This document shows positions 1,994-25,561 of a DNA stretch of 35,261 nt, in pieces; position 1 is the first letter of the stretch, and the number at the start of each line of letters is the position of its first letter. The notes beneath the pieces were generated by a model. That model was not told the origin of the DNA. It made no database searches and worked only from the letters and a program-made list of their open reading frames with translations. Position numbers and translations under genes: made by a program. Origin of the DNA: Pseudomonadota bacterium (GTDB lineage Bacteria; Bdellovibrionota_C; UBA2361; OMIW01); assembly GCA_900299205.1 (NCBI GenBank), contig OMIW01000100.1, positions 1-35,261 on the forward strand, in the 5' to 3' direction.

Positions 1994-2141
1994 TCGAAAT
2001 TCATCAAGAAACCAGCGGGCACCCAGCAGCGCCCCTGTGCAAAAGACACCTGTCTCATTCTCGACCGAGAGAGAAAAAAGTTTCGATTAATTTTTAAGAA
2101 AAAAGGCGTCCACGCCCAGGTGCTAGCGATAGGCGGAATAA

Positions 2142-2170
2142 TTGACGCGTTGACTCAAAACCAGTAGTCT
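2142..2170 (+). promoter_or_regulatory. Sigma-70-type promoter of tRNA-Val
   Basis: A -35 box TTGACG (2142-2147) and a -10 box TAGTCT (2165-2170) are separated by exactly 17 bp. The mature tRNA begins 11 bp after the -10 box. Spacing and position fit a housekeeping promoter for this tRNA. Confidence 0.6.
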
Positions 2171-2180
2171 CCTAAACGAT

Positions 2181-2255
<75 letters not shown>

Positions 2256-2276
2256 CATCGAGAACACGTTCGAGTG

Positions 2277-2330
2277 CGAGAAACAAGCAACCCTCGAGAA
2301 ACAAGCAACTCTTGAGAAATAAGCAACCCG
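2277..2330. repeat. Three tandem 18-bp repeats after the tRNA
   Basis: Three consecutive copies start at 2277, 2295 and 2313. Each follows the pattern YGAGAAAYAAGCAAC plus three variable bases. The array lies between the tRNA-Val 3' end and the rsmG stop and encodes no protein. A weak GGGTC/GACCC hairpin follows at 2337-2352 and may end the tRNA transcript. Confidence 0.7.
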
Positions 2331-2355
2331 CTTGAGGGGTCTTCCTGGACCCTCC

Positions 2356-3087
2356 CTAATTCTTTTCTCGGGGAAATCTCGTCTCTCCGGAGAATCTCCA
2401 GGTGACGACGGTACGTGAAGGCGATAGAGATACCACCTCTGGATCAGGCCATCTGTTCTTTACCTGTCCCTTCTGAGACCCTTTATTAACCGAAATTCGA
2501 TAGTCCTTCATCTCATCTGCGACCGAAGACCCCTTGAGTGCGACAGCTACCCCGCCCGGTGCAACGAATGGCAAAAGCCACGGAGCTAATCGCGCAAGAG
2601 GGGCTACCGCACGGGCAACCGCCATCTGATACCCTCGTGCATGGGATGTATCGTATTGAATCTCCTCGGCACGCCCGTGGACCACGGTCAGATTTGTGAG
2701 CCCGATTCCCCTCGCAACTTCAGATACAAAGTCAAGTTTTTTTCTCGTCGCATCGAGAGCAGTAACTTCGATAGTCGGAAAACAAATAGCGAGCGGAAGT
2801 GCTGGGAAGCCCGCCCCTGTGCCAACATCGATCAGACGAATTGCCCCCTTAATGGGCACCGCCATGACCACGGCCAGGGAATCAAGAATGTGTTTTTCGA
2901 TAAACTCCCCCTCGGGGATTCGGGTGAGATTAAGAGTGGCATTCTTCTCATAAAGCCGTGAACCTAACTCTGACAGCTGATCTAGTTGACGAACAGAGGG
3001 CACGATGCCAAGTTCTCCGAGCTCCCGAAGAAGCTCAGCCTTCTCAAAACCAGGCACACCTTTGCTGACGAACAAACCTGAACTCAT
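2356..3087 (-). CDS. rsmG: 16S rRNA m7G527 methyltransferase RsmG
   Basis: RsmG (GidB) methylates N7 of G527 in 16S rRNA using S-adenosylmethionine. The protein is 243 aa, a little above the family's typical 205-215. Seen: the SAM-binding motif I DVGTGAGFPALPLAI, the following acidic strand VTALDATRKKLDF, and HGRAEE, all characteristic of this family. The N-terminal block LNLTRI followed by HILDSLA is also typical. The start at 3087 gives an N-terminus MSSGLFVSK. The C-terminus carries about 20 extra residues with ETRFPRE. It stands alone rather than in the common gidA-gidB context. Confidence 0.92.
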   Translation of the reverse strand: MSSGLFVSKGVPGFEKAELLRELGELGIVPSVRQLDQLSELGSRLYEKNATLNLTRIPEGEFIEKHILDSLAVVMAVPIKGAIRLIDVGTGAGFPALPLAICFPTIEVTALDATRKKLDFVSEVARGIGLTNLTVVHGRAEEIQYDTSHARGYQMAVARAVAPLARLAPWLLPFVAPGGVAVALKGSSVADEMKDYRISVNKGSQKGQVKNRWPDPEVVSLSPSRTVVTWRFSGETRFPREKN

Positions 3088-3152
3088 ACTACCCTGCCGT
3101 TCAAAACCGAGAGATATTCGCCACGAAAATGATTCATCAATGAGAGCCCGAG

Positions 3153-3446
3153 TTACGGCATCATCGCTCCCAAATAGCGCTTGAATCCGTGATAGGACTC
3201 CGCCCGATCCTGAGCGTCCTTGTCTCTCCGCCGACGCTGCTCTAAGGCTCGCGCACCGAGGTCCACATCACCGTGGAGAATTTGTAACATTCGCCCATTC
3301 GCAAGCCGCTCGTCAAACTTCTCCGTCCGAACGAGACGGACCGAATGACGCGAAATGTCTTGCCAGGCCATATAAGAAATTGCTCCGCAAAAGAGCCAAA
3401 TAATCGCAAGCATCGCCGCCTTGGAGTCGCTGATAATATCGAGCAT
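3153..3446 (-). CDS. Small single-pass membrane protein, unknown
   Basis: A 97-aa protein that I do not recognise. The start at 3446 (MLDIISD) was chosen because GGAGG sits 4 nt upstream. A further in-frame ATG at 3473 lacks such a site. Residues about 12-29 (AMLAIIWLFCGAISYMAW) form one transmembrane helix. The remainder is highly charged (EQRRRRDKDAQDR), probably cytoplasmic and helical. It lies upstream of rsmG on the same strand with a 65-nt gap and may share its transcript. Confidence 0.55.
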   Translation of the reverse strand: MLDIISDSKAAMLAIIWLFCGAISYMAWQDISRHSVRLVRTEKFDERLANGRMLQILHGDVDLGARALEQRRRRDKDAQDRAESYHGFKRYLGAMMP

Positions 3447-3689
3447 CGGTCCTCCGAATCTTTTAAATCGCATCCAATCGCTACTTTCACCTCAGCCGTC
3501 TCCGGCCATCAGCATTGCCTTACCGCGTCGACCTCTCTTAATCTTCCATACTCTCAAGGACCCGGATCAACAGCAAGGGGGATATGGCTCGGCAAAGCCA
3601 CCTTCATGTTGCCGCTTCCCGCCTTAAGCTGATACCCTCCCCTTCTCGTTTTCAGCATCCACTCCCTCCCACACTTCGAGACAAATTTC

Positions 3690-4331
3690 GTGAAAAATAC
3701 CCCTCCCCTCCTGACCCGTCGAATAATCACTCCTTACCTAGCCCTCTTCATCGTCGCAACGCTCCTCCTTTTCGCCCCACAATCTCGGGGCTTAGCTGAG
3801 GAATCCAGAGAAGAAAGCGAGCTAATTGACCATGAGATGGCCTCTGAAGACGCGTTGACCCATACGAAAAAACGGGAGGATAAATACCTAAGAGACGAGG
3901 AAGAAGAGAGGGAGGAGGAGCATTCATTCGCTCATCGGGTGCTTTGGTATCTGCCGAACCGATTCCTCGATGTCACCGACCTCGTACGGGCACGTTTGAG
4001 AGTTGGTCCCGGAGCAGCGATTGACGCGCGTGCGACAAAGTTCATCCGGGCAGGGTTAGGGTCCTACCTTTCGGTCTATGCCGGCCTTCCCGGCCCTCGC
4101 CAACGAACCACCCCTCGCTCTCCGATCGGGCTCGAGGCGTACTCTGGAGTATCTCTCAGTGTCGCCGAGGCGTCGTTTAAGACAGGTTATGAGCCCGACT
4201 ACTCGCCGTCAGAGGTCGGCATAGGTTTCCAGCTACTAATTCTGGGCATCGATGTGGGAATCGATCCGCTTGAGGTAGGTGACCTGGTAACAGGGCTCGT
4301 TGGAATAGATCTGGTCGGCGACGATTTTTGA
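3690..4331 (+). CDS. Exported protein of unknown function
   Basis: 213 aa from a GTG start with a weak ribosome binding site. Residues 1-38 look like a Sec signal peptide: basic start, then ITPYLALFIVATLLLFAP, then a polar cleavage region. Residues 40-80 are an extremely acidic/basic linker (DEEEEREEEH). The C-terminal part, from LWYLPNRFLDVTDLVRAR onward, has regular Gly-rich strands (VGPGAAIDARATKF, EVGIGFQLLILGIDVGID) and looks like a compact envelope-associated domain. I associate this kind of sequence with uncharacterised exported proteins but cannot name a family. The gene converges with the next one on the opposite strand. Confidence 0.6.
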   Translation: MKNTPPLLTRRIITPYLALFIVATLLLFAPQSRGLAEESREESELIDHEMASEDALTHTKKREDKYLRDEEEEREEEHSFAHRVLWYLPNRFLDVTDLVRARLRVGPGAAIDARATKFIRAGLGSYLSVYAGLPGPRQRTTPRSPIGLEAYSGVSLSVAEASFKTGYEPDYSPSEVGIGFQLLILGIDVGIDPLEVGDLVTGLVGIDLVGDDF

Positions 4332-4356
4332 CGCCCCCTCCCTAAGGAAGAGGATC

Positions 4357-4995
4357 TTATTCGACGATACGCTCGATGGCATCGAGGATAAAGGGAGAAT
4401 CATCGCAAAGGGGTTTTAATGGAGCCCTCGAGCCCGAAGTGGCGGAAAGGAAAGCGCCCCCCGCACTTCCCCGGGATATCTCTTTAAAAGCAGACCCGAG
4501 TGAGAGCTTGCTCATAATCGTTCGGCGTTGTGGCAGCACCTTTGCGGGATTCTCCTCGGGACGCAGGATTGATTCGAGTACCGCTCTTGCCTCTTGCGAA
4601 GTCTGAGTTCCATGATTTTGCTCAACAAGGTTCGGAGGTTGCACATCGTCGGTCACCGTGCTCACGGACTCGACCTTACTATCCGCAGCAGGTACGAAGG
4701 GGGGTGAATTTTCGAACTGACCTCCCTCGTCAACTTCGTTGATGACGGAGGACGGTGCAAGCTGGGAAGGCTGCTGAAAGGTTTCATAACGCAGCATCTC
4801 ATCTTCAAGCCCTTCCTCGGCAAGCCACGCGAAACTCTCGGTAATACCCTCGCGGACATTTCGAAGGGTGATCCGCATCCCCCTGAGAACTGTCTCATTA
4901 ACTGCCCCCCCCTCCGGGGGGATTAAAAGATTCTCCACCATCTCTAGAAGATGGACAGATTCGGATAACTGCGCTAACACCTGTTCTCTCATCAT
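4357..4995 (-). CDS. Hypothetical protein
   Basis: A 212-aa protein not recognised. The N-terminal 70 residues are helical (VLAQLSESVHLLEMVENLL, then a second helix), and the middle (about 75-135) is low-complexity Ser/Pro/Val/Glu-rich and likely disordered. A short C-terminal helical part ends in DAIERIVE. There is no signal peptide or transmembrane segment. It ends tail-to-tail with the upstream exported-protein gene with 25 nt between stops. The architecture (two ordered ends joined by a linker) suggests an adaptor, but no function can be assigned. Confidence 0.45.
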   Translation of the reverse strand: MMREQVLAQLSESVHLLEMVENLLIPPEGGAVNETVLRGMRITLRNVREGITESFAWLAEEGLEDEMLRYETFQQPSQLAPSSVINEVDEGGQFENSPPFVPAADSKVESVSTVTDDVQPPNLVEQNHGTQTSQEARAVLESILRPEENPAKVLPQRRTIMSKLSLGSAFKEISRGSAGGAFLSATSGSRAPLKPLCDDSPFILDAIERIVE

Positions 4996-5222
4996 TATTC
5001 GGCCTCACGGGGGAAGGATCGTTCGGCTTGGGCCTCTGAAACGAAGGGCCCCTTTTTTGACGAAATCCTTTCGGGGAGATCTTGGGCAAAAAATTCTCTC
5101 GTTAAGATGCGCGATCCCTGCCGCTCGGTTCGAACTCCGTTATCGCATCCGAAAACCTGAAGGGCACCATTAGTTCTACCATCTTTGTAGCTGCAGACCG
5201 TGATTCTGGGAGAAGAGAGTTT

Positions 5223-5906
5223 ATGAGTTCAACACTACGCAGAGACGCTCCTAACGACTTTAATTCCCCGGATTCTTGCCCTGCCACCACTCCGCGGGCT
5301 CAAAAAAGAACGCTGACTAATTGCGAGGAGGATCGGCGAAACTTAAGTGCTCGTTTCAATAATTTAGCTCGCGGAACAGACCTCGAGAATGGCGGTTGGG
5401 TTGAGGTCCCCAAAAGCGAACCCCAACATTTCCAACTCCGCTTGGATGGCGCCCATTCCCCCAATCAGAGGCCTCGTAGCCTCTCGACACCATCGCCTCG
5501 CGAGCTGCTCGCGATCTGGGCCAAGCTTCACCAACAGTTTTTTCCTGGCCACGAGATTTTGGCCCAGTACAACCTTTTCTGGAGCACCCGACCCCAAAAA
5601 CGGGTGCTCGCTTCGTGCGACATTATTGGCAAACGGGTGCGGGTTGCGCGCGAGCTTGCTCGCCCTGAATATGAGAGGTACCTTTCACCACTGCTCTATC
5701 ACGAAATGTGTCACGCAGTGATTGGTAGAGAGGTTGAAACCAGGAATGGTGCCAGGCTTTGGCATGGCCCCCAATTCCGGGCACTTGAGGCGAATCATCC
5801 CGATTCGTCGATGCTGCAGGCGTGGATTACTGAGGGGGGATGGGCAACTGCCGTGCGGCGAGACCGAGCCTTCGCCGCCGCATCGAGGCGCAAAAATCGC
5901 AAATAG
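5223..5906 (+). CDS. SprT-like zinc metallopeptidase domain protein
   Basis: 227 aa with a C-terminal SprT-like domain. Residues 158-181 contain the zinc signature: LYHEMCHAVIG (HExxH at 160-164), and the third ligand His181 in LWHGPQFRALE. The order HExxH then H-G-x-x-F is typical of SprT/Spartan-type domains. A strand before it (RVLASCDIIGKRVRVARE) is also family-like. The N-terminal 95 residues look disordered and show no domain. There is no C-terminal zinc ribbon, so this is the peptidase core only. SprT-like proteins include DNA-protein crosslink proteases, but the actual substrate here is unknown. Flanked by unrelated genes. Confidence 0.75.
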   Translation: MSSTLRRDAPNDFNSPDSCPATTPRAQKRTLTNCEEDRRNLSARFNNLARGTDLENGGWVEVPKSEPQHFQLRLDGAHSPNQRPRSLSTPSPRELLAIWAKLHQQFFPGHEILAQYNLFWSTRPQKRVLASCDIIGKRVRVARELARPEYERYLSPLLYHEMCHAVIGREVETRNGARLWHGPQFRALEANHPDSSMLQAWITEGGWATAVRRDRAFAAASRRKNRK

Positions 5907-18614: not shown

Positions 18615-20102
18615 TCAACTCCTCCTTGCTTTGCAATCCGAAGATTCACTCCTGAACGATAAACTAACAAAGAAGCCTCCCCCCGAGAGATTCTTTGCAA
18701 CAATCCATCCCCCCATAATCGACATCGCTTCTTGAGTTATGGCCAGTCCCAACCCAGTACTTCTGAGGCCGGTTGTCGGTCGGGGGAGCGAGAAGAATTG
18801 GTCAAATATTCGAGTGAGAGCCCATTCGGGCACTCCGGGACCATGATCTCTAATGTGAACCTCAACATAAGGAGGGATGACCGTACTTTCCACATCCGCC
18901 CCTCCGACACCTCGCCGAACCGCTATCTCAACCTGTGACCCATTAGGCGAAAAGCTGATGGCATTACGCACCACATTGGTGAGCGACTCGCGGGCGAGAA
19001 ACGGTGACCCCAACAGTCTTTCATCGGGGTTGAGTATATTCACCTCCAGCGAAACATTTTTTAACGCCGCCTCGCTCCGCACTCGCTCGGAAACCTCCTC
19101 TAGGATAGATCCGAGCCGAAAGCTCTCAACCTCCGGACCACCCCCATGGGCGGCTAGCGAGTTGAGCGTCATGAGATTATCGACCAAACCGATGATTCGA
19201 CCCGTATCCTGTTCCATATTTGCCAGAAACTTCTCCCGCACCGATGAATCAACGGTTGCTTGGACAACCTCAAGGGCACCCCGGATAGCCGTAACAGGGG
19301 ATTTGATCTCATGCGAGATGGCCCGAATGTAACGAGTCGTTTTCTGCGTCCCATCTACCGCTCGGCGCATCTCCTCGATCGCCTGGAGCAACTCCCTAAG
19401 TTCGCCGGGGGGCATGGCGGGCAGCGCGATGGGATTACCATCCCGCACTGACCGTACATACCGAGATAGTTTTCGTAGTGGCTCAGTAAGCACCAGGAGA
19501 GCGATAAACCCAAGACACGCCGCAGCAAGAAAAATGACCGTACCCAGCAATACGACTTGGCGCCGGGCATCGGCGACAAGACGATTTGAGGCACAGGTGG
19601 GCTTCGCCGCTGAGATCACACCAGAAACCGCCCCTCGATGATAAAGTGGCAGCGACACATACATCGTCCCACACGGCTCGCCCGGATTAGTCGTCGTGCG
19701 AGCACCATAGCCACCACGAAGCGCATAATGCACATCTCGCCACTGGTCATAGGCTGCGCCTACGAGATGTTTACCTCCAGAGTCAAACAGAAGTGTCCCC
19801 TTTTTATCGTAAATGAGGAGAGATGTATCAATAGACGTTTTCTTCAGATCGTATATTGTCGCCGATATCCTCTCGCGGTGAGCAGCGGTCATCTCATCAA
19901 GGAGTGAGCCATCAAGCGAATCACCCCGCCACATATTCTCTCCAAGCATTGTTCGAACAGTGACAACGAAATCAACAAGCACCTCTTCACTTGCCTCTCG
20001 AGAGCGACGTTTTAACTGATTCACCTCGCCTCGAATAACAAGAGCTGCTGTACCGATACACAGAACTCCGAGAACTATGGTAAGCCGAAGGAGTGTCGTC
20101 AT
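18615..20102 (-). CDS. creC: Sensor histidine kinase CreC
   Basis: 495 aa membrane sensor kinase. Transmembrane helix 1 is about 4-24, a periplasmic sensor covers 25-180, and helix 2 is about 183-206, followed by a HAMP linker. The phosphoacceptor is His264 in AISHEIKSPVTAIRG. The ATPase domain shows NVVRNAISFSPNG (N box), DHGPGVP (G1), FDQFFSLPR and STGLGLAIT (G2). The sensor block (KGTLLFDSG, YALRGGYGARTT, YVSLPLYHRG) and the FFSLPR motif match CreC specifically. In E. coli CreC responds to carbon-source and envelope signals and phosphorylates CreB. The gene follows creB with a 160-nt gap. The start is ATG 20102. Confidence 0.85.
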   Translation of the reverse strand: MTTLLRLTIVLGVLCIGTAALVIRGEVNQLKRRSREASEEVLVDFVVTVRTMLGENMWRGDSLDGSLLDEMTAAHRERISATIYDLKKTSIDTSLLIYDKKGTLLFDSGGKHLVGAAYDQWRDVHYALRGGYGARTTTNPGEPCGTMYVSLPLYHRGAVSGVISAAKPTCASNRLVADARRQVVLLGTVIFLAAACLGFIALLVLTEPLRKLSRYVRSVRDGNPIALPAMPPGELRELLQAIEEMRRAVDGTQKTTRYIRAISHEIKSPVTAIRGALEVVQATVDSSVREKFLANMEQDTGRIIGLVDNLMTLNSLAAHGGGPEVESFRLGSILEEVSERVRSEAALKNVSLEVNILNPDERLLGSPFLARESLTNVVRNAISFSPNGSQVEIAVRRGVGGADVESTVIPPYVEVHIRDHGPGVPEWALTRIFDQFFSLPRPTTGLRSTGLGLAITQEAMSIMGGWIVAKNLSGGGFFVSLSFRSESSDCKARRS

Positions 20103-20262: not shown

Positions 20263-20982
20263 CTAAACGTCCTCTCGCAGGGAGTACCCGAACCCCCGAT
20301 GGGTCATTATTAGATCGCGTGTTGGATCGATTAGTTTCAACTTGGCCCGAATGGTTTTAATGTGGGTATCCACCGTACGTTCGAGACTCATATCGGGTGA
20401 TTCCCAGACGATCGACATGAGCTGTTCGCGACTAAAAACCCATCCCGGCCGCTCCATTAATGTTGCCAGTAGTTTAAACTCATACCGCGTTAGTGTCAGG
20501 GGCGTACCAAGATACACGATTCGAGCTCGTGCGATATCCACAACAAGGTCACTCCGAGAGCCCTTTCGCCTCAACTGATTCTCCTCTGAAGGCCCGTTCA
20601 ACGACTTTATTCCCGACCCTTGACTTCGACGAAGAATCGCACGCATGCGACTTACCACCTCCCTCCCACTAAAAGGTTTTGTGACATAATCATCCCCTCC
20701 CAACTCAAGCCCAAGGATCCGGTCGATCTCCTCTGAGCGCGCGGTCAGGAAGAGGATGGGAACACCTGAGGTGAGCCGAATTTCCCTGCATATTTCAAAC
20801 CCCGACCTATCCGGCAGACCTACATCAAGGATGATGAAGTCGAAACTTTGCTCGCTTACCGCGCGGATGGCTGATTCTCCATCGGGAGCGTGGAAGCACC
20901 CGAATCCCTCTGACTCAAGATTGAATACCAGCGATTCGGCTATGGTCACTTCGTCTTCAACAATAAGGACTCGAGCGCTCAT
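20263..20982 (-). CDS. creB: Response regulator CreB (OmpR family)
   Basis: 239 aa. The receiver domain has the acidic pair in VLIVEDE, phosphoacceptor Asp53 in FIILDVGLPDRSGFE, then LFLTARSEEIDRILGLELG and KPFS with the conserved Lys. The C-terminal winged helix has LTRYEFKLLATLMERPG and RTVDTHIKTIRAKL, ending in THRGFGYSLR. Wording such as LTARSEE-(I/V)-DR and THRG-x-GYSLR is that of CreB. The start at ATG 20982 follows AGAGGA; a longer frame from 21012 was rejected. It sits 38 nt after creD and upstream of creC. It probably binds the 11-bp-spaced repeats described upstream of creD. Confidence 0.88.
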   Translation of the reverse strand: MSARVLIVEDEVTIAESLVFNLESEGFGCFHAPDGESAIRAVSEQSFDFIILDVGLPDRSGFEICREIRLTSGVPILFLTARSEEIDRILGLELGGDDYVTKPFSGREVVSRMRAILRRSQGSGIKSLNGPSEENQLRRKGSRSDLVVDIARARIVYLGTPLTLTRYEFKLLATLMERPGWVFSREQLMSIVWESPDMSLERTVDTHIKTIRAKLKLIDPTRDLIMTHRGFGYSLREDV

Positions 20983-21020
20983 AGTTATTCCTCTACCGAA
21001 AAAAGGCATCACGATCGATC

Positions 21021-22373
21021 CTATTGCCTCAGGCTATACCAATCGACCTTTCGCGTCACGAACATGATCGCCCCAAGCCCGACGGAAAGCCCTATCGACC
21101 CAAGAAGCAATGAACCGTCCTGCTCGCGGAGAATGGTATATAGAAATCCATAGGTTACGGTCAACAACGCTCCGACCGTCGCACCATGTCGCCAGCCTCC
21201 TAAAACGGCTGCCGAGTAGCCCGCGACGAGTAAAACGGTGATGGTAGAGGCGATAAGGTATGCCGCGGCGAGTCCGATATGCTCTCCGAAAGTGAGAGTT
21301 AGCAGGTAAAACAGGGACAACGCAGCGCCCACGAGTAGATACTGAAACGGATGGAGCCGGATCTTTGTGACGAATTCAAAAAGAAGGAAGGTGCCAAAGA
21401 TTAGAAGGACTACAAGCTCTCGATATTTAATTGCCCGCTCGACTGAATGATGAGCTGAGATGCCATCAAGTAGATTGATTCCTATGGGGTTTCGGTTTTG
21501 CGCGAAATAATGGTGCTGGCTTTCGCATTCCGGAAAGCATACCAGTTGCGTCGAGAATTTCTCCCCATGCCATCGTGCGCTACTTCCATCTGAATTGACT
21601 GATCGCTCCTCAGCGAGAAGCGATCCAGAAAAACTCGGATTTTCAGTATTTGCGGATAATGAAACATCCCAGACATGACTCATCGGAGAGACGGAGAATG
21701 ACTTGGTACCGCGAACCTTGAAGATCGCCCGAAGAGAATGGATCCGCTGGGGACTGGTTATCACCTCATGCGGTACGGTAAATGCGAGGGAATTGTCAAA
21801 ATTTAGGGGCTTTAGCTCAAGCTCTTTCCCATCGAGGGTCATCTCTTCGATAGCACGAATCGAATTTCTGTCGGTAAATTTGATAACAACAAGTCCAGAA
21901 GGAGTATCGGGAATACGGGGGAGCGAAAGCATCTCCTCCGAGAGGGCAAGTTCACCAGAAATAGTCACGGTACTAACAAATGTTTGGAATGAGTATATGC
22001 CTCGATAAATCGTCTCGCTGGCTAAATCTGCCTTCAACTGAATTCTATCGAAAGGTTTGATGCGAAGTGGTCGCTTTCGAGTTTCGGTGGAGGGTGCGCT
22101 AGGAACCTCAGAAAACGCCCCATCCGATGCTTCTAATTGAATACTCGCCGATTCTTTCAACACGTCACCCTCTGGCACGATAAAAATGGGGCCCTCAATC
22201 AACTGCTCTCCCCCAGCCATCTCGGTGATTTTGACCTCAGCCTCTTCACGTCGAGACATCCGCTCACTGAGTAAACCCCAAACCTCAACTATCGCCATCT
22301 CGATAATAACCATCACAACTGCTAGAGAAATAGCTTTCACGAGCCAACTTCGTGCTCCTATCAGAACTTTCAT
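21021..22373 (-). CDS. creD: Inner membrane protein CreD
   Basis: 450 aa CreD family. One N-terminal transmembrane helix (about 12-32) is followed by a large periplasmic domain (40-300, with AIFKVRGTKSFSVSPMS and FSGSLLAEERSV) and six C-terminal helices. The diagnostic end is present: GFLYTILREQDGSLLLGSIG, then a final helix and TRKVDWYSL. In E. coli CreD is the strongest CreB target and affects envelope integrity and beta-lactam tolerance. Its mechanism is unknown. The start at ATG 22373 has GGGAGG 5 nt upstream. It is the first gene of creD-creB-creC here, whereas E. coli has creA-creB-creC-creD, so the order differs. Confidence 0.87.
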   Translation of the reverse strand: MKVLIGARSWLVKAISLAVVMVIIEMAIVEVWGLLSERMSRREEAEVKITEMAGGEQLIEGPIFIVPEGDVLKESASIQLEASDGAFSEVPSAPSTETRKRPLRIKPFDRIQLKADLASETIYRGIYSFQTFVSTVTISGELALSEEMLSLPRIPDTPSGLVVIKFTDRNSIRAIEEMTLDGKELELKPLNFDNSLAFTVPHEVITSPQRIHSLRAIFKVRGTKSFSVSPMSHVWDVSLSANTENPSFSGSLLAEERSVNSDGSSARWHGEKFSTQLVCFPECESQHHYFAQNRNPIGINLLDGISAHHSVERAIKYRELVVLLIFGTFLLFEFVTKIRLHPFQYLLVGAALSLFYLLTLTFGEHIGLAAAYLIASTITVLLVAGYSAAVLGGWRHGATVGALLTVTYGFLYTILREQDGSLLLGSIGLSVGLGAIMFVTRKVDWYSLRQ

Positions 22374-22421
22374 CCACACCTCCCTTTGAAAACGTTAGAT
22401 ACGATACTCTCGCTCATGAAT

Positions 22422-22459
22422 GTGAAGGGTTTATGAAGTGACGGCGAATTAGGGATGAA
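22422..22459 (-). promoter_or_regulatory. Probable CreB operator upstream of creD
   Basis: On the minus strand, reading toward creD, pentamers TTCAT, TTCGC, TTCAT and TTCAC lie at exactly 11-bp steps (plus-strand starts 22455, 22444, 22433, 22422). The E. coli CreB site is known as TTCAC-N6-TTCAC, the same period and sequence. The array ends 48 bp before the creD start codon, and a candidate -10 (TATCGT, plus-strand 22401-22406) follows. This is consistent with activation by a head-to-tail OmpR-family dimer. Confidence 0.65.
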
Positions 22460-22859
22460 TTCAGTTCCGGAGGGCCATTTTCGGAAAACAGTGATAAAGG
22501 ATCGACCACGCGAGAAGGGTGCCCTTCTCACATCAAGCCATTTTGATCCGCTGGCAAGGACCATCTGAAGAGCCACAATCCCACGAAGAAAGGACCGTCG
22601 AGGACCTTCGCTGATATAAAGGCCGTTTTGCGAGTTGAATTAGCGACGAGCCGGACAGAACGATGGAGACCAGGGGGCACAAGGGGCCTAATCCGATTAG
22701 GGATATCGATCTTCCTAACAATCATTTCCCTCTCCGCCTGCCACCCCCGGAGACGCCTCGGTTCCCTCGTCAGATTCTTTGGTTAAGGGCACCCCCTTTC
22801 ATATCCATATTGACTTTACGGCGATTTTTGCGATTCTCTTCGAAGCTGAAGGTTCACTT
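22460..22859. other. Intergenic stretch without a supported gene
   Basis: The 400 nt between the cre operator and the next plus-strand gene contain only short frames on both strands with no ribosome binding sites or recognisable domains. They presumably hold the plus-strand gene's promoter, which I could not locate. Confidence 0.5.
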
Positions 22860-23198
22860 ATGTTACAGCTTCAAAGCGCGCAGTTTGGGGCATCCCCCTC
22901 AAACTCGGTAATGGTGCGCCGCGAGGCCACCGGTTTTTTTATCGGTGTTGGCGAGACGCAGATGCATCCCGAGATCGGAGCTCGGTACCTCAGCATCCTC
23001 GCCAAATCGATGGAGGACTGGCGGTATCCCGGATTTCCCGTTCAGGTGTCCCTTTCTGATGATAAAAGAGCCCTCGGGATCAAGCGGGATTCTGTCGTCT
23101 TTCACGATGGCACCCCTTGCCGTGATTACCCTACTCGATTGGAAATTATCGCTGCCCTTCATCGAGCTGCTGAAGAGATCCGTTCTCAACGCCGGTAG
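22860..23198 (+). CDS. Hypothetical protein
   Basis: 112 aa, not recognised. The start at ATG 22860 has GAAGG about 8 nt upstream; the frame can be extended to TTG 22779, but that lacks support. It is predicted soluble with alternating strands and helices (ATGFFIGVGETQ, ARYLSILAKSMEDW, LEIIAALHRAAEEI). A rho-independent terminator oriented for this gene follows 18 nt after the stop, which favours this reading over a long overlapping frame on the other strand. It is divergent from creD. Confidence 0.55.
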   Translation: MLQLQSAQFGASPSNSVMVRREATGFFIGVGETQMHPEIGARYLSILAKSMEDWRYPGFPVQVSLSDDKRALGIKRDSVVFHDGTPCRDYPTRLEIIAALHRAAEEIRSQRR

Positions 23199-23621
23199 AG
23201 CAGGTTGGATTGATCGGGCTGCTTCCACTGAGAGGCAGCCCCTTTTCTCTTCTTGCTCCTCCGTCCTTGCTCGATGCTCTCCAATATCGTCTCTTTGAGC
23301 GCGGAAGGGTTTCCGTCGTCGACGAGAGGAGTGTCTCCACCAGCAGGGACCACAACTCATCGAGTGAACGGTCCACCCGCTCCCTACCCCAGGAATCCGT
23401 GCCATATACCAGGAGAGCGAAGGCTGAAAAATCATCCCTTGTCCTAATACAAGCAGAACAAGAGGCAGATCTGCCCGAACTTTTCTTCCATTCGCAACTA
23501 TCTTATCCACGACCAGCCCATAGTGAGTGCCGTGGGTATGCATGGTGAGCCCGACAATGACAGCGAAGATGGACATGAGCGCTATGTCGACCGGTTCGAG
23601 CGTTGACGATATCGTTCTCAT
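23186..23621 (-). pseudogene. Small membrane protein, probably frameshifted
   Basis: From ATG 23621 (GGGAG 5 nt upstream) the first 60 codons look coding and contain one transmembrane helix (VDIALMSIFAVIVGLTMH) and then LPLVLLVLG. Coding character then moves to a second frame near 23435 (DDFSAFALLVYGTDSWGRE) and to a third near 23355 (VVVPAGGDTPLVDDGNP), which ends at a TGA at 23186. The single frame from 23621 stays open to 22899 but becomes Arg/Cys/Trp-rich and crosses the plus-strand gene and its terminator. Either the gene carries two indels or the sequence does. The family is unknown. A 24-codon frame (about 23692-23618) ends on its start codon with an ATGA overlap. Confidence 0.35.
23216..23246 (+). 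terminator. Rho-independent terminator
   Basis: A 10-bp stem GGGCTGCTTC/GAGGCAGCCC with one G-U pair and a 6-nt loop (23226-23231) is followed by CTTTTCTCTTCTT. There is a T-tract only in the plus direction, so it ends the 22860-23198 transcript. Confidence 0.75.
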
Positions 23622-23752: not shown

Positions 23753-24859
23753 CTATCGCCTCACCTGTTGCCCATTCGTCGGCAAATTGGGGTCTGTAAC
23801 GAGAGTGGGCTCCTCTCCAGTGAGACGGGCTATCGCTTCCCGCGCGAGCTGTGGAGAACTTTTGCCGAAAATTGAAAGATGAGGCACCAAAAAAAATGCC
23901 TTGTCTTGACCTTCCGCAACACTGATGAGTGTTTCCCAGTCGGCGAAGTACCGGAGAGGAGTGATAGCAAGAGGAGCTCCGGCCGTGCGGTGCTCGGAGA
24001 TAACGTACCGTGTCACCGTCCTTGGCGCTTCCGCAACAACAATGAGCAAGCCCCCGACACAAAGGCCCGCAAGGAGGGAACGAGAAAAAAAACGTTCCCT
24101 AACATCCTGCCCTCTTATCATCAAGCGGCGCACAAGAGCGACCCCCAAAACACAGAAATTTGGCGGGGTTAAAAAGAAAAAACAAGAAAATAACCAGACC
24201 AGGTCTAAAAGTTCAATCCCAATGAGGTCCTCCATCGGAAGAAAAAAAGAGATGAGGAGCAAGAGACAAAAACCGCCTCCTACAGATACAGAGGGAAATA
24301 AGACGACAAGTGAGGCATAAACTATCAACAAAAGTGAAGAAAGAAACGAGTTTGCAGGGTGCAAGCCCCAAACGGCACCCAGGAAAACCACCCCATAGGC
24401 CGCACTCACCACGAGCGCAACTCCCTGCAAGAAGCCGACTACGGCTCGGACTCCTCCCCTGCTCCGCCTGACGGGGTTCGTGGCTCTTTTCACCAAGAGT
24501 CCACTTACCAACTTCAACAAAGGAGGAGCCGTGAGGATCGCACTCAGCGGCCTCATCCCCAGAAGAGCTGCAAGAGGCCGGATGTGCCCCTTTACGCGCC
24601 GGTGCGGAACCTCTGCGCGATCGCTCATCCTCAATCGTCTCCACCCAAAGAGAGTCGCGATAGCACTTATCGCAGGGGTCAGAACAAGGAGAACATGCAG
24701 CCGTGTGGGTACAAAGACGTCGCCCCCATCGATTCCTCGAGACAACAATACCCAACGAACAGGCACAATGATAAGTGCCACGCAGAGCAGTATCCTTGCC
24801 ACACCCGACAGAAACAGTAACATGCGCCTACTCGCTCTTAAGATAACACCCCTTTTCAT
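23753..24859 (-). CDS. Polytopic membrane protein with C-terminal soluble domain, unknown
   Basis: 368 aa from ATG 24859, which has GGAG 8 nt upstream. There are about seven or eight hydrophobic helices between residues 10 and 290. A cytoplasmic-looking basic loop follows helix 2, and a Phe-rich helix (LVWLFSCFFFLTPPNF) lies near residue 230. The last 80 residues are soluble: PLRYFADWETLISVAEGQDK, then ARLTGEEPTLVTDP. I do not recognise the family. Three perfect CreB-type repeats and a TATAAC box lie just upstream, so it is probably CreB-controlled. After the stop at 23753, coding-like sequence continues in another frame (EAIELASELSLDTPVTRAI) to 23694, so the true C-terminus may be longer and the stop the result of an indel. 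Confidence 0.6.
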   Translation of the reverse strand: MKRGVILRASRRMLLFLSGVARILLCVALIIVPVRWVLLSRGIDGGDVFVPTRLHVLLVLTPAISAIATLFGWRRLRMSDRAEVPHRRVKGHIRPLAALLGMRPLSAILTAPPLLKLVSGLLVKRATNPVRRSRGGVRAVVGFLQGVALVVSAAYGVVFLGAVWGLHPANSFLSSLLLIVYASLVVLFPSVSVGGGFCLLLLISFFLPMEDLIGIELLDLVWLFSCFFFLTPPNFCVLGVALVRRLMIRGQDVRERFFSRSLLAGLCVGGLLIVVAEAPRTVTRYVISEHRTAGAPLAITPLRYFADWETLISVAEGQDKAFFLVPHLSIFGKSSPQLAREAIARLTGEEPTLVTDPNLPTNGQQVRR

Positions 24860-24907: not shown

Positions 24908-25561
24908 CTAAAGCATGTGAAGAGTTGGTGAAGTCCCTGTGAAAAGGAGCAGAATTGCGGACGGGGCTTGATAATCCAAGTTGTGCTCGTCAGGTGGCTC
25001 CGAGGCAACTTCAAATAATTGGTGCTCTCCAAAATCTCCCGTCCAGCCACACTGTCCTCCCACACCACCCCACGCACTTGGACGCCCGGCGGGGGGTGAA
25101 AAACGATTATGCAATATCTGAGAAAATGAGAAGCTCCGCATGCTGAGGACGAATAACTGCCTTGGTGGAGAGGGACAAGCGTTCACACGAAGTGCTATTT
25201 CAGTATTGAGGAACGAATCCCGGAGGAACATCCGCTTCCCCGTATCCGCACCCCGCTGGACCTCATGGAGGTAAAAACCTCCTCGAATGACGACGTTTGC
25301 GGTCGGGGCTGCTAGTGCTCCCAAGGAGGTCGAGAGAGAAATAATGGCCGCGACCTGCTCTTCCGGACCGCGCATACTAATCTCTAAAATTCTCGATCTT
25401 AACCCTTTTTCGGCGAGACAGAGGGTTATAAATCGCCCCAAACAAACTGGACCATCGAAATCAACCAGCGAACACAATCCCCAAAGCGAAACGATCCGGA
25501 TATTACCTATCCGAAGGTTGTGGGTGATCCTCTGGGGAATATTCAGAGCTGGGCCTGCCAC
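24908..25561 (-). CDS. Hypothetical protein
   Basis: 217 aa, not recognised. Its middle has alternating hydrophobic and polar strands (ATAN... region around VVIRGGFYLHEVQRGAD, then KRMFLRDSF), and the C-terminal part is Gly/Pro-rich (RFSPPAGRPSAWGG). Third-position and RNY codon patterns stay consistent from about 25500 to the stop at 24908, so the frame appears intact, although a competing frame is open from 25077 to 24856. The start is uncertain; ATG 25561 has no good ribosome binding site. It precedes the CreB-type repeats and points the same way as the membrane-protein gene. The divergent aroB begins 151 nt away. Confidence 0.45.
   Translation of the reverse strand: MAGPALNIPQRITHNLRIGNIRIVSLWGLCSLVDFDGPVCLGRFITLCLAEKGLRSRILEISMRGPEEQVAAIISLSTSLGALAAPTANVVIRGGFYLHEVQRGADTGKRMFLRDSFLNTEIALRVNACPSPPRQLFVLSMRSFSFSQILHNRFSPPAGRPSAWGGVGGQCGWTGDFGEHQLFEVASEPPDEHNLDYQAPSAILLLFTGTSPTLHML
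24917..24943 (-). promoter_or_regulatory. Three perfect CreB-type direct repeats
   Basis: Minus-strand TTCAC occurs three times with exactly 6 bp between copies (plus-strand GTGAA at 24917, 24928 and 24939). This is the published E. coli CreB tag TTCAC-N6-TTCAC plus one more copy. It is oriented toward the membrane-protein gene at 24859 and overlaps the last codons of the upstream gene. Under a uniform base model, three identical copies at fixed spacing are expected far less than once in 35 kb. Confidence 0.7.

Follow-up and report, generated by a model that had tools for sequence, protein, structure and literature searches.

We identify three TTCAC repeats ahead of the gene for a polytopic membrane protein, here called MemP, which very probably form a CreB-activated promoter of MemP within an envelope regulon, judging from the comparisons described below. 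An operator of CreB type driving a membrane gene had been proposed in a sequence-only reading of the window (the whole stretch of 35,261 nucleotides analyzed here), and the proposal gains support from an encoded regulator that passes the CreB cut-off and has a CreB-like recognition helix. We prefer the CreB operator because the combination of array and -10 element recurs at creD and at envelope operons, and because its enrichment follows the cre genes. What is known of CreBC comes from a few proteobacteria. Its output there (CreD and CbrABC) has been connected with envelope stress, tolerance of colicins, and the response to beta-lactams; to our knowledge, this output has no clear biochemical role. 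Envelope damage by colicin M induces the creBC regulon of Escherichia coli (PMC3599342), and a tag upstream of creD is reported to be critical for binding by activated CreB/BlrA (PMC4689548).

The TTCAC array and the proposed MemP promoter

The array lies on the minus strand at positions 24943-24917 (TTCACAGGGACTTCACCAACTCTTCAC; TTCAC AGGGAC TTCAC CAACTC TTCAC), and we confirm the three perfect TTCAC units, with a period of exactly 11 bp, that had been noticed earlier. They make up two overlapping exact TTCAC-N6-TTCAC pairs, the repeat of the cre/blr tag, and a degenerate fourth unit, TTCTG, stands one period upstream of the triple (24954-24950). Like the tag, the array is promoter-proximal and on the coding strand of its gene. 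The -10 element TATAAC (24906-24901, minus strand) begins 10 bp after the last TTCAC, a position conserved in 18 promoters, and is preceded by two bases by the G of an extended -10 (24908, minus strand). A GGAG Shine-Dalgarno sequence (24871-24868, minus strand) and the ATG of MemP (24859-24857) follow, in the order of TATAAC and start codon first described. Although the listed open reading frame starts at an in-frame TTG (24889), the true start is more likely the ATG, which has the Shine-Dalgarno sequence.

Pattern searches with reversed controls found no second TTCAC triple in the 2.45-Mb draft genome, even with one mismatch allowed; from base composition, we calculate an expectation of about 0.004 exact triples in a genome. 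An accidental repeat in or beside an unrecognized open reading frame, with no regulatory role, could be argued from the minus-strand ORF 24908-25561, which overlaps the array with a weak coding score, and from the abundance of TTCAC-N6-TTCAC pairs with one mismatch in the genome (118 vs. 76 for the reversed pattern). We nevertheless regard this origin as extremely unlikely, because the exact triple is unique, lies on the right strand at the right distance from a near-perfect -10 element, has the cre genes as neighbors, and fits a geometry conserved at other promoters. The other exact pairs of the genome lie inside or against long open reading frames, without a properly placed -10 element. We rejected the genome-wide set of pairs as a regulon list, as it is too permissive and consists mostly of matches in coding sequence.

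In the mechanism that we infer, an envelope-stress signal would lead to phosphorylation of the CreB encoded by creBC, and phosphorylated CreB would occupy the 11-bp repeats of the MemP array head-to-tail, on a single face of the helix. The last unit stands 10 bp ahead of the extended -10, and CreB bound there would substitute for a -35 element and bring in sigma-70 polymerase by class II activation, in the manner of PhoB on a pho box, leading to transcription of MemP. Other members of the OmpR family repress some of their targets, and CreB could likewise repress MemP or contribute little to its expression, with MemP driven mainly by other means. This is very unlikely, given that the array stands in place of the -35 element and that we found no sigma-70 promoter-like site near it on the same strand; moreover, CreBC activates creD in E. 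coli and Pseudomonas aeruginosa (PMC4689548).

MemP and the neighboring creDBC genes

MemP (23753-24859, minus strand) is an orphan polytopic inner-membrane protein of 368 amino acids, with an in-frame coding signal and a hydropathy profile of about 7-8 hydrophobic helices followed by a C-terminal tail of ~90 residues. Its earlier description as an unrecognized polytopic membrane protein holds, as we found no relatives in Pfam, NCBIfam, the PDB, or 46 genomes of the phylum. Assignments to DUF4153 (no profile match; hhalign probability 0.6%) and to CreD, MSEP-CTERM, or exosortase (no similarity) were rejected, and an AlphaFold model, built without relatives, was set aside (mean pLDDT 45.6). Judging by its predicted regulation and its topology, MemP probably belongs to the CreB response as an inner-membrane component.

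The reading frame after MemP (22899-23621, minus strand) had been taken for a small membrane protein. Its first ~80 codons (about 23380-23621) do carry coding signal, but the signal then changes frame near 23390, and a small membrane protein here is possible but doubtful. Over 23360-23621 (minus strand), this shift suggests a frameshift or an assembly error. We also observe a 139-residue ORF that shows coding signal and matches no Pfam family, on the plus strand between the MemP module and creD (22779-23198).

The cre genes lie on the same strand as MemP, at least 1.4 kb downstream of it, with creBC 4-6 kb from the array. Each passes its NCBIfam equivalog cut-off, which bears out the earlier statement that creDBC adjoins the membrane gene: creD, for the inner-membrane protein CreD (21021-22379; NF008712, 313.7 vs. 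275 bits; also PF06123), creB, for an OmpR/PhoB-family response regulator (20263-21012; NF008296, 297.5 vs. 273 bits), and creC, for a sensor histidine kinase (18615-20102; NF008312, 372.4 vs. 356 bits). The genome thus encodes both CreB and CreC, as expected where a cre/blr tag is used, and the recognition helix of this CreB (RTVDTHIKTIRAKL) is one conservative residue apart from that of E. coli CreB (RTVDTHIKTLRAKL). A similar tag is also present upstream of creD, in the form of a degenerate array of four units, TTCAT-TTCGC-TTCAT-TTCAC (22422-22459, minus strand), the putative CreB operator of creDBC, with a weak -10 element, GAGAGT (22406-22411, minus strand), at the 10-bp spacing seen at MemP. 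This weaker array would drive creD-creB-creC, and since creD heads the genes and creBC come after it, the cre system is probably autoregulated, in a positive sense.

The serious rival is that a different OmpR/PhoB-family regulator binds the array, which might then be, for example, a PhoB-type pho box. PhoB and PhoP boxes of several phyla are 11-bp direct repeats, and in pho box promoters such repeats replace the -35 element at about 10 bp from the -10, as in the class II arrangement proposed here. The draft genome (about 90% complete) encodes only two OmpR-family regulators, CreB and one at C76:12045. The latter, however, falls below every equivalog cut-off shown, PhoB included (210.6 vs. 296.2 bits), and its recognition helix differs from that of CreB; no PhoB over the cut-off was found in this draft, the regulator that a pho box would call for. 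The pho box also has a different half-site and a different regulator. The arrays described here are immediate neighbors of creD, creBC, and envelope genes, either in front of them or at their side, and their enrichment is confined to cre genomes. We consider a regulator other than CreB quite unlikely and continue with CreB as the predicted activator.

Conserved geometry and association with cre genes

We aligned 14 arrays by their last unit and scored the -10 element at each spacer length. The mean score peaks solely at the 10-bp spacer (3.31), with negative values at every other spacer, and none of 5,000 shuffles reaches it; this peak is absent from six control arrays taken from genomes that lack cre genes. 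The aligned promoters share an A at position 2 of the hexamer (14/14), mostly a T at position 6 (11/14), and the G two bases before it that marks an extended -10 (12/14). A larger set of 18 promoters, with one weak case dropped and five added, keeps the A at position 2 throughout (18/18), although the statistic is valid for the 14-promoter set only, since two of the added arrays (L243 and L246) were found with the -10 element in the search pattern. The same 10-bp distance is found in E. coli, where the tags of cbrA and cbrB, two known CreB targets, read TTCAC-N6-TTCAC-N10-TAGTCT and TTCAC-N6-TTCAC-N10-TAAATT and resemble the window array; E. coli creD lacks a -10 at 10 bp and has CATAGT about 20 bp away.

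We then compared 46 draft genomes of the phylum, 8 of which encode CreC over the cut-off and 4 of which encode creD, using a search pattern that joined three units to the -10 element and tolerated up to 3 mismatches. The ten genomes that have cre genes give 23 matches vs. 5 for the reversed pattern (our own sums; an array matched in several overlapping registers was counted once for each, so 23 matches are not 23 promoters), and the other 36 give 23 vs. 23. All five matches with at most one mismatch fall in cre genomes. The ten comprise the eight with CreC over the cut-off together with G037, counted through a CreC fragment 88% identical to the CreC of G034, and G041, counted through creD, and this class label is imperfect, the genomes being drafts. 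In G041 (86% complete), we found no CreC over the cut-off, with creD and arrays present. Two cre genomes, G042 and G044, have no match at the pattern threshold and show arrays in looser scans. We discarded the arrays of genomes without cre genes, as they lie within genes, resemble microsatellites, or lack a -10 at 10 bp.

Envelope operons with CreB-type arrays

In cre genomes, arrays of 3-5 TTCAC-like units occur around creBC and creD and as independent array matches. One group lies upstream of DUF4153 membrane proteins (G034 L076, G037 L077, G044 L088, and G041 L242), of which the gene at L088 is divergent from creB. Another lies upstream of VIT/VWA proteins with a PEP-CTERM-like end (G034 L075, G007 L087, G015 L083, and G004 L236); an exosortase follows the VIT/VWA gene in most of these loci, and two of them (L075 and L087) come directly after creC. 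An array with GATACT at 10 bp precedes an operon in G006 (L243; C89, 3-2700) that passes the cut-offs of TIGR04287 (78.7 vs. 55 bits) and TIGR04286 (439.1 vs. 150 bits) and encodes XrtK and MSEP-CTERM. Further arrays precede small or unassigned membrane proteins (G015 L082, G006 L079, and G041 L246). The expectation of conserved spacing and enrichment near envelope genes is thus borne out for the operator class, MemP itself having no ortholog in the phylum, and the exosortase, VIT, and DUF4153 targets go beyond what had been predicted. Two loci with VIT/VWA-like and rhomboid-like neighbors, reminiscent of a rhombosortase pair, are without CreB-type arrays (L238 in G033 C86 and L239 in G006 C253).

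The window's own genome carries a third array, on another contig, at an operon that we located through its protein and not through the motif (L235 in G000 C55:15000-20723; operon at 2013-5628 of this locus). The operon encodes a VIT/VWA protein, an XrtQ-like exosortase, and an accessory protein of ~189 residues, and its array reads TTCAC-TTCAT-AACAC-CTCAC, with CATAAT at exactly 10 bp. The exosortase falls below the Exosortase Q cut-off (NF012182, 160 vs. 270 bits) and has the exosortase/archaeosortase signature (TIGR04178, 46.1 vs. 23 bits). The third array would serve this operon, and we infer an envelope-maintenance regulon of three or more units, MemP among them.

More broadly, we lean toward the view that CreBC directly regulates protein-anchoring modules in this phylum, as CreB-type arrays are found on two unrelated pairs (the XrtQ-like enzyme with a VIT/VWA protein, and XrtK with MSEP-CTERM), along with creD, DUF4153 proteins, and MemP-like orphans. 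If so, CreBC would govern an envelope-stress regulon that takes in surface-protein sorting. Linking CreB to exosortase/VIT pairs, DUF4153, and orphan membrane proteins would make the roles of CreD and of the sorting systems testable jointly, and the strict operator geometry in another phylum offers a pattern with which the CreB regulon can be searched for. This regulon content is new with respect to the literature searched: we found no paper linking CreB with exosortase or VIT, in a search that missed many subscription papers.

The operator itself represents a lengthened form of the known cre/blr tag. With the tag of E. coli and Aeromonas it shares the core TTCACN6TTCAC, the 11-bp period, the regulator family, and creD as a target, but it has three to five units instead of two, and its targets, unlike theirs, take in an orphan membrane protein as well as exosortase/VIT operons and DUF4153 proteins. 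The dedicated sortase system of proteobacteria (TIGR03787/TIGR03788) likewise places a VIT/VWA target under an OmpR-type two-component system; here, in contrast, the processing enzyme is of the exosortase family, the regulator is CreB by cut-off, and neither the TIGR03787 nor the TIGR03788 cut-off is reached.

The creD gene also differs in its placement, preceding creBC in the window and following them in E. coli and Aeromonas. Among named CreB loci of other phyla, tags upstream of creD are recognizable in only some. Within the phylum, arrays precede creD in G004 (L090) and a truncated creD in G006 (L081). The latter (C370; 1619-2069) corresponds to the C-terminal 120 residues of CreD and still has an array of four units, 50 nt ahead of its ATG; it is either what remains of creD or a short CreD that stands alone.
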